Source of the DNA: Natronosalvus caseinilyticus
GTDB lineage: Archaea; Halobacteriota; Halobacteria; Halobacteriales; Natrialbaceae
Direction of reading: 5' to 3'
Length of the DNA stretch: 64,000 bases
Assembly: GCF_017357105.1 (NCBI RefSeq)
Contig: NZ_CP071596.1
Coordinates: 496,001 to 560,000, forward strand
The position numbers and the translations under genes were made by a program. A model generated the notes under the pieces. That model saw nothing but the letters and a program-made list of their open reading frames with translations. It ran no database searches and was not told the DNA's origin. Every line of letters begins with the position of its first letter. Within the stretch, counting starts at the first letter, position 1. This document shows, piece after piece, positions 18,926 to 20,787 of the stretch.

Positions 18926-20365
18926 GTGATCGTGGTCGTGCGAGTGCCCACCGTCGCTCGCCGCCCCCAGATCTCCGCCGGCGACCAGCGCCTCGTGATC
19001 GCCGTCGATCATGTCCATGTTCTTCAGGTTGTCGCGCTCCTCGAAGTCCTGGACGGCCTCGAGCAGGTCGTCCTGGGTGAGCGTCGTCCGGTTCTCGGTC
19101 AGGGCCTCGAGGACGGCCTCCCGCATGACCATCCGGAGGTCGCTCCCGGTCATCCCCTCGGTCGCGTCAGCGACCGCGTCGGGGTCGAACTCGTCGATGT
19201 CCATCGCGTGGGTGATGACCCGGAGGATGTCCGAACGCATTCCGGTGTCAGGTTTGGGGAAGTTGACGATCTCGTCGAAGCGCCGCCACGCCGCGGCGTC
19301 GAGCTGGTCGGGGTGGTTCGTCGCCCCGATCAGGAGGACGTCGTCCTGAATGAGCGAAACGTTGTCGATGCTCTTGAGCAGGGTGTTGACCGCCCGCTTG
19401 AGCGCGGCGTGTTCGTCGCTCCGTCGGGTTTTCGCGACGAAGTCGAACTCGTCGATGAACAGGATACACGGCGAGAGCCGCTTTGCCACCTCGAACGTCT
19501 TGTCGACGTTCTTGGCCGTCTCGCCGAGGTACTGGCTGGTGATCATCGAGAGTTTGACCTCGACGAACGGCAGGTCCATGTCGTGAGCCAGCGCGCGGGC
19601 CGTCGACGTCTTCCCGGTGCCCGGCGGCCCAACGAACAGCAGTTTGCCGATCTCGCGCAGGCCGATCTGGGCGAGGTAGTCGCGATGCTCGATCGCTTTG
19701 GCGATCTTCTCGATTTCGGACTCCTGGTTCGGCGTCAACACCAGGTCGTCGAGGGTGATATCGACCTCCTCGGGGGCGCGCACCTCGACCAAGTCGAGCA
19801 TCTCCTCTTCTTCCTCGTCGGCGAAGTACTCCTGGAGCAGGCCGTCGATCCACACCCGGTCGGCCTGGATCGGACGGTTCTGCTCGCGGGCAGCCTCGTA
19901 GTCCACGTCGAAGGCGAGCCCCTCGCGTCCCTCGAAGTGCTTCGCGAGTGTCGGGTTCGCCTGGATGCGGTCGGCGTCGGTTCGCTCGAGGTACCAGCGC
20001 TCGGCGAGGTCGCGTTCGGTGAGCGAGATCGACCCCGAAAAGTCGTCGCGCTCGGTGAACATGAGGTCGCTAACGGCGTGCCACGGGCGGTCGACGCCGG
20101 TCGCCTCGCGGATGGTCGTGGTGGTGGCCGACAGCGGGCGGGAGATGCCACCACGGTGACGTCGGTCGCGGCCGGAACCCGCGCCTGCGCTCGCGGCGTC
20201 GCCCGAATTGGATGTGTCGTCGGTGTCGTCAGTCCCACCGGCGGCGCCCGTCCAGAAGACCCGGCGGATCGCCGGCGGGAGGTCGTTTTCGTCGAGAGAA
20301 CGGTCGTTCGAGTAGATGCTCGCCGTAAGCAGGAACTCGACGACCTCGAGCGCCGGAGTACTCAT
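18917..20365 (-). CDS. AAA-family ATPase with His-Asp tail
   Basis: 482-aa cytoplasmic AAA+ protein from the ATG at [11 protein letters not shown]. The N-terminal 200 residues are a non-catalytic domain with an acidic Thr/Asp patch. The AAA module follows: Walker [12 protein letters not shown] (about 246-256), Walker [10 protein letters not shown] (about 300-308), sensor-1 [13 protein letters not shown], arginine-finger region [12 protein letters not shown] and the C-terminal lid [13 protein letters not shown]. This is the FtsH/Cdc48-like classical AAA clade without protease or membrane parts. The last nine residues, HSHDHDHDH, could bind metal. It is monocistronic, and its partner protein is unknown. 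Confidence 0.88.
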
Positions 20366-20507
20366 TCGCTGCACCTAGTCACCACACGCCCTTAATCCCG
20401 TCGTCACGGCCGCGACGCGACGGCCGTCGTCGAGTCTTGGGAGGTTGTTCCCGTTATCGACGGTCCGAGAGTCCACGAACGCCGTCGCTCGAGGAACGTG
20501 ACGGCGT

Positions 20508-20555
20508 CAAAATTCCCTTCATAGCTTTACCTTGTGACCAGAACCACTTAAAGGG
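20508..20555. repeat. 48-bp direct repeat upstream of mptA, copy 1
   Basis: Matches copy 2 (20619-20666) at 44 of 48 positions. The core CCTTGTGACCAGAA and the ends CCCTTCATAGCT and ACTTAAAGGG are invariant. Each copy begins CCCTT and ends AAGGG, so its ends can pair. Read on the minus strand it encodes [16 protein letters not shown]. Confidence 0.85.
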
Positions 20556-20618
20556 GAGAGGAGTGCTACCGAGGGACACGGGCTGCCCAGCGCAGTGGCT
20601 CGCAATAGAGAACGACGC

Positions 20619-20666
20619 CAAAATGCCCTTCATAGCTCTACCTTGTGACCAGAAGTACTTAAAGGG
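20619..20666. repeat. 48-bp direct repeat upstream of mptA, copy 2
   Basis: Second copy of the block at 20508, in the same orientation and exactly 111 nt (37 codons) away. The four differences from copy 1 on the minus strand give one synonymous and two conservative changes (W/Y and K/R): [16 protein letters not shown]. It lies 121 nt before the mptA start; its ACTTAAAG could serve as a TATA element for mptA. Confidence 0.85.
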
Positions 20667-20787
20667 ACGACCGGAGCTCTCGCTCGCCCGAAAGCGAGGG
20701 GTCGAGCGTACCGGAGTCCCCGTCCGTGAGTTCGACAGGCTAGCCCCTTCCGAAAGGCCTAATCGCGTTCTGGCCCGAGTGCAACCA

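Follow-up and report, generated by a model that had tools for sequence, protein, structure and literature searches.

An intergenic element upstream of mptA in Natrialbaceae and its link to the gene for RNA polymerase subunit epsilon

Two nearly identical blocks between divergent genes of Natronosalvus caseinilyticus raise the question of what a repeated 48-bp sequence is doing upstream of mptA, for which the first-pass annotation had offered a regulator or RNA element, a dispersed repeat or a repeated short peptide. In the window (the whole 64,000-nucleotide stretch of contig NZ_CP071596.1 that was analyzed), the copies lie on the plus strand at 20508–20555 and 20619–20666, between an AAA+ ATPase gene (PF00004; 18917–20365, minus strand, start taken as the ATG at 20365) and mptA, which encodes a type I GTP cyclohydrolase FolE2 (PF02649; 20788–21723, plus strand). 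The annotated similarity and spacing are confirmed (44 of 48 positions equal, start-to-start distance 111 bp), as is the location of both copies inside one minus-strand open frame (ORF 20454–20633); a repeat search gives the pair as 55 nt at 89%. Within the host genome of 4.2 Mb the exact core CCTTGTGACCAGAA is confined to these two copies, and the reversed form of the degenerate core described below has no match in 382 genomes (0.0016 per genome expected by composition), so the repeat is not due to chance.

The element and its arrays in Natrialbaceae

Comparison of 80 mptA loci yielded 163 instances of the element, including the two in the window, which align over a sharply delimited conserved block, roughly −5 to +41 (CCCKTCRTAKCTHYACC-TTGTGACCAGARnnACTTAAAG) and show no conservation in the spacers between copies or downstream of the element. 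The element is intergenic and ∼45 bp long, and comprises a 5′ box (CCCKTCRTAKCTHYACC in Natrialbaceae) followed by the class-wide core TTRTnRCnnGARnnACTTAAA with its TATA-like end. With block and edges set by the 163 homologous instances, copy 1 (CCCTTCATAGCTTTACCTTGTGACCAGAACCACTTAAAG) occupies 20515–20553 on the plus strand, divided into the 5′ box (20515–20531) and the core with a following G (20532–20553), which includes a putative TATA-like ACTTAAAG at 20546–20553, read as such from the haloarchaeal consensus (PMC4983044). Copy 2 (CCCTTCATAGCTCTACCTTGTGACCAGAAGTACTTAAAG) lies at 20626–20664 on the same strand, with the core at 20643–20664 and the TATA-like ACTTAAAG at 20657–20664.

Natrialbaceae mptA loci carry 1–9 copies per locus, all directed towards mptA and at least 97 bp from their neighbors, with many intervals of 108–147 bp; the mptA loci of other families in the 80-locus set have none. 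The position upstream of mptA is thus conserved in this family, and of the options in the first-pass annotation that of a regulatory element is the one left standing. The description as a dispersed repeat is also accurate, as a Natrialbaceae genome may contain up to 16 model matches to the element, plasmids included, but these are not decayed transposon ends because their sequence is conserved over a sharply bounded 46-nt stretch and tracks a single gene. We rejected the element as the promoter of mptA itself, since the distance from the end of the last copy to mptA is 89–193 bp at most Natrialbaceae loci with a copy, and a separate BRE/TATA-like sequence precedes the gene. The latter, a putative core promoter visible at 20750–20764 of the window (CCGAAAGGCCTAATC, plus strand) and recognized from the BRE/TATA consensus, is conserved at Natrialbaceae mptA loci.

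A degraded mptA fragment (residues 189–223, 69% identity) lies directly downstream of an element on a plasmid of genome G029 (G029:C2:170211-170315, locus L155), and it looks as if mptA and the element were copied as one. Sequences resembling TGCCTCTGACA...CAGTAG occur shortly 3′ of several plasmid-type elements (L175, L176, L157, L163, L164) and may represent the end of an insertion sequence.

Co-occurrence, adjacency and parallel divergence with the epsilon gene

The mptA gene proved to be just one of the genes associated with the element, and the wider partner is the gene for RNA polymerase subunit epsilon. Outside mptA loci, the recurrent neighbor of the elements is a gene named by NCBI “DNA-directed RNA polymerase subunit epsilon” (rpoeps), the identity of this cluster with the Halobacterium salinarum epsilon (OE_1279R) resting on NCBI names rather than direct comparison. 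A more sensitive model (R1) also found a third copy in the host genome beside the epsilon gene (G000:C1:3936092-3936135, minus strand). Epsilon has been known for decades from the Halobacterium RNA polymerase and is present in H. salinarum and in a subset of the haloarchaea. Native templates are transcribed efficiently by polymerase that contains epsilon and not by polymerase that lacks it, and yet a review from 2021 on annotation issues still calls the role of the subunit enigmatic (PMC8305020).

Epsilon matches were found in 178 of the 382 genomes of the class, with 61 strong matches outside the window's family, and all 18 matches in a phylum sample of 247 genomes fell within the same order. 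The degenerate core was searched in the same 382 genomes; it was derived from known elements and epsilon-adjacent loci, so that adjacency is partly by construction for those loci, but this does not apply to the distribution across genomes. Of the genomes outside the window's family, 56 have both element and epsilon, 5 epsilon only, 8 the element only and 215 neither (Fisher p = 2e-44, a value that overstates independence because the genomes are related). A site of an epsilon-containing RNA polymerase, as proposed below, should be present where epsilon is and absent elsewhere, and this is the pattern observed outside the family. Presence of the pair varies at the genus level in several families and does so jointly inside two genera: epsilon in g50 is restricted to G194 and G225, the only two genomes of that genus with elements, and in g6 G043 and G207 have both and G071, G101 and G361 neither. 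Seven of the eight element-only genomes have a single match, and the remaining one, G353 (87% complete), is from g29, of which the other listed members have epsilon. The genomes with epsilon and no core pattern are G179 and four of g54 (G165, G177, G257 and G272); the element may be lost or changed in the latter four. Haloarchaea also contain distantly related proteins, with E values of about 1e-17 to 1e-21 to epsilon, for example at G008:C3:17558-17980, at G003:C1:435462-435890 and on a Halobacterium hubeiense plasmid (H20; 29.5% identity); some haloarchaea with such a relative lack epsilon proper.

Among the genomes outside the family with readable positions, 32 of 35 have an element that is directed away from the epsilon match and located 51–199 bp from it on the 5′ side. 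Such epsilon-adjacent elements were found in families f1, f2, f3, f4 (g61) and f6–f9, each lineage having its own element consensus (for example, GCAGAATCCCGCTTACTTCATCCCTTATCGCGAGAAGYACTTAAAC in f9), and several genomes have further elements 3′ of epsilon, directed outwards. Elements of f9 located away from rpoeps (L223–L230, L256, L257) have the box CCGCTTACTTCATCCC, as opposed to CCCGTCGTATCTACTCC beside rpoeps in G194 (L213), with a similar core. In Natrialbaceae, the epsilon gene lies within 3 kb upstream of mptA at 26 of 47 loci, 24 of which also have an element no more than 600 bp from mptA. Eleven of the 21 loci without epsilon nearby still carry an element within that distance, and the window locus is of this type. 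At many Natrialbaceae mptA loci, for example at L059:1640-2605, a gene for an RlaP-type nucleotidyltransferase (PF10127, RNA repair) is situated between rpoeps and mptA and has an element array on either side.

The sequences of element and epsilon also vary together. Among 28 genomes with epsilon-linked elements, element distance tracks epsilon distance at constant MptA distance (partial Mantel 0.58, p = 0.0005), and the reverse partial correlation, with MptA given epsilon, is −0.09; MptA here is one marker and not a species tree. The signal resides in the 5′ box (0.60), the part at 20515–20531 in copy 1, with a value of 0.14 (p = 0.067) for the TATA-side core, whose variation is limited because the core served to find the elements. 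Since linked elements share a locus with the epsilon gene, and whole-locus transfer could mimic co-evolution, the analysis was repeated with elements far from epsilon (31 genomes), giving a partial r of 0.29 (p = 0.001), with box and core alike. In this set MptA given epsilon retains an effect (0.18, p = 0.024), which rises to 0.27 when f9 is left out, indicating that shared ancestry explains part of the signal. Two Natrialbaceae genera have an epsilon from another lineage and an element resembling that lineage's. At the sequence level the element appears to co-diverge with epsilon, less so for unlinked copies, where ancestry contributes. A literature text search for the core returned unrelated papers only. 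The element is real, widespread and apparently undescribed, and its link to polymerase subunit epsilon is strong.

A proposed site of the epsilon-containing RNA polymerase

We hypothesize, with moderate confidence, that the element is a directional cis-acting site of the epsilon-containing RNA polymerase, autoregulating rpoeps and acting before mptA in Natrialbaceae. Epsilon, alone or within the polymerase, would read the 5′ box, TBP and TFB would bind the BRE/TATA-like 3′ half (GARnnACTTAAA), and both parts jointly would constitute an epsilon-dependent promoter or upstream activating site, a reading that we favor because the 3′ half resembles BRE/TATA and the 5′ box follows epsilon. Through the site beside its gene, rpoeps would control itself; in Natrialbaceae the arrays found between rpoeps and mptA would have arisen by multiplication of the site, which would have been kept before mptA even after rpoeps moved away, as in the window. 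Epsilon binding at the element, the start and direction of transcription there, and a response of mptA are predictions of this model.

The protein has no significant sequence match in Pfam, NCBIfam or PDB, and domain searches recognized no DNA-binding domain. Its AlphaFold core is all helical (pLDDT 83, pTM 0.74), with best Foldseek matches mostly to cyclin, TFIIB or Brf2 folds, none significant (E 0.35–1), so that a distant cyclin-like relation may at best be taken as a lead. The possibility that epsilon is a TFB paralog was unsupported by profile comparison with the three host TFBs (hhalign probability 0.16%), and Pfam scans gave no TFIIB.

The lack of a recognized DNA-binding domain is one of several points against this hypothesis, as are the epsilon-bearing genomes without the core pattern and the MptA effect among unlinked elements. 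No strict gene-orientation rule holds among 97 element groups: a same-strand downstream gene, as expected of a core promoter, follows just 47 of them, a divergent gene is present 5′ of 59, and 21 are situated between convergent genes (approximate counts, as the gene calls come from a simple ORF script). The expected start-site position, 22–30 nt downstream, shows no purine signal or base preference in 163 copies, and mptA and rpoeps apparently have separate TATA-like core promoters of their own. That the element precedes rpoeps, a gene with a TATA-like promoter of its own, that in genus g77 genes have their own TATA-like boxes 50–80 bp downstream of elements, and that epsilon lacks a recognized DNA-binding domain would all suit an operator of another transcription factor controlling rpoeps, mptA, rlaP and scattered genes, with epsilon merely a target. 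We consider this unlikely, as such a factor would need the same distribution as epsilon, whose co-occurrence with the element is nearly complete even inside genera, and the divergence of the element tracks epsilon. Somewhat less likely still is that rpoeps and the elements form a module moving between replicons, in which the elements serve recombination, partition or maintenance and are not promoters. Elements do occur on many plasmids, often one or two each and twice directly after a ParA operon; plasmids of Halorussus, Halococcus and Halocatena carry epsilon; at several loci epsilon has elements both 5′ and 3′ of it; elements form tandem arrays; and epsilon and element of g19/g22 look jointly transferred. 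However, the sequence is retained in unlinked copies, no recombinase or partition gene accompanies the elements throughout, phage and viral collections contain no match to the element, and epsilon has been purified biochemically as a subunit of the polymerase (PMC8305020).

Tandem promoters of short non-coding RNAs, independent of epsilon, would account for the TATA-like 3′ end, the spacing of the mptA arrays and the sites between convergent genes, but leave the epsilon link unexplained and sit poorly with the unconserved downstream sequence and the lack of a start-site signal; we regard them as improbable. An RNA hairpin or repeated short peptide, suggested by features that are true of the two window copies, can be practically discounted, as neither pairing nor frame is conserved and no Rfam family matches the element. 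RNAalifold found neither consensus structure nor covariation, removing the RNA-hairpin part of the original regulatory proposal, and the pairable ends (CCCTT/AAGGG) noted in both window copies are not conserved elsewhere, being paired in 57% of cases, the same as in shuffled controls. The minus-strand peptide fared no better, with the frame kept in 31 of 74 adjacent array pairs and open in just 7.

The presence of the element in almost exactly the epsilon-carrying genomes, and usually next to the epsilon gene, suggests where epsilon acts, and its role becomes testable: the subunit gains candidate DNA sites with exact genomic positions and first genes to inspect, namely rpoeps and, in Natrialbaceae, mptA and rlaP. 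More tentatively, epsilon-carrying haloarchaea may have a dedicated promoter class, comprising a long epsilon box and a TATA half, with epsilon as an optional sigma-like specificity subunit, which we regard as possible but doubtful. If epsilon does read the box, it would be an optional specificity subunit of an archaeal RNA polymerase, with a promoter class of its own; we know of no such subunit in any archaeon.

Comparison with known promoters and activator sites

Published haloarchaeal promoter motifs are CGAAA and TTWT (PMC4983044), and by eye the 3′ half of the element appears similar to such a core promoter, with a purine-rich stretch preceding a TATA-like box, as is usual there. Unlike in a core promoter, conservation reaches ∼30 bp farther upstream; the element also forms arrays and in many cases is not followed by a gene start. 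Bat and GvpE are haloarchaeal activators with upstream activating sequences next to the BRE, and the element is similar in placing a conserved box directly before the BRE/TATA region. It differs in that it is not bound to one operon and follows an RNA polymerase subunit instead of a pathway activator. Alternative bacterial sigma factors recognize their own promoters, and although epsilon has no significant homology to sigma factors or TFB, they provide an analogy for a long bipartite site that is paired with an optional polymerase component and is also found beside that component's own gene.
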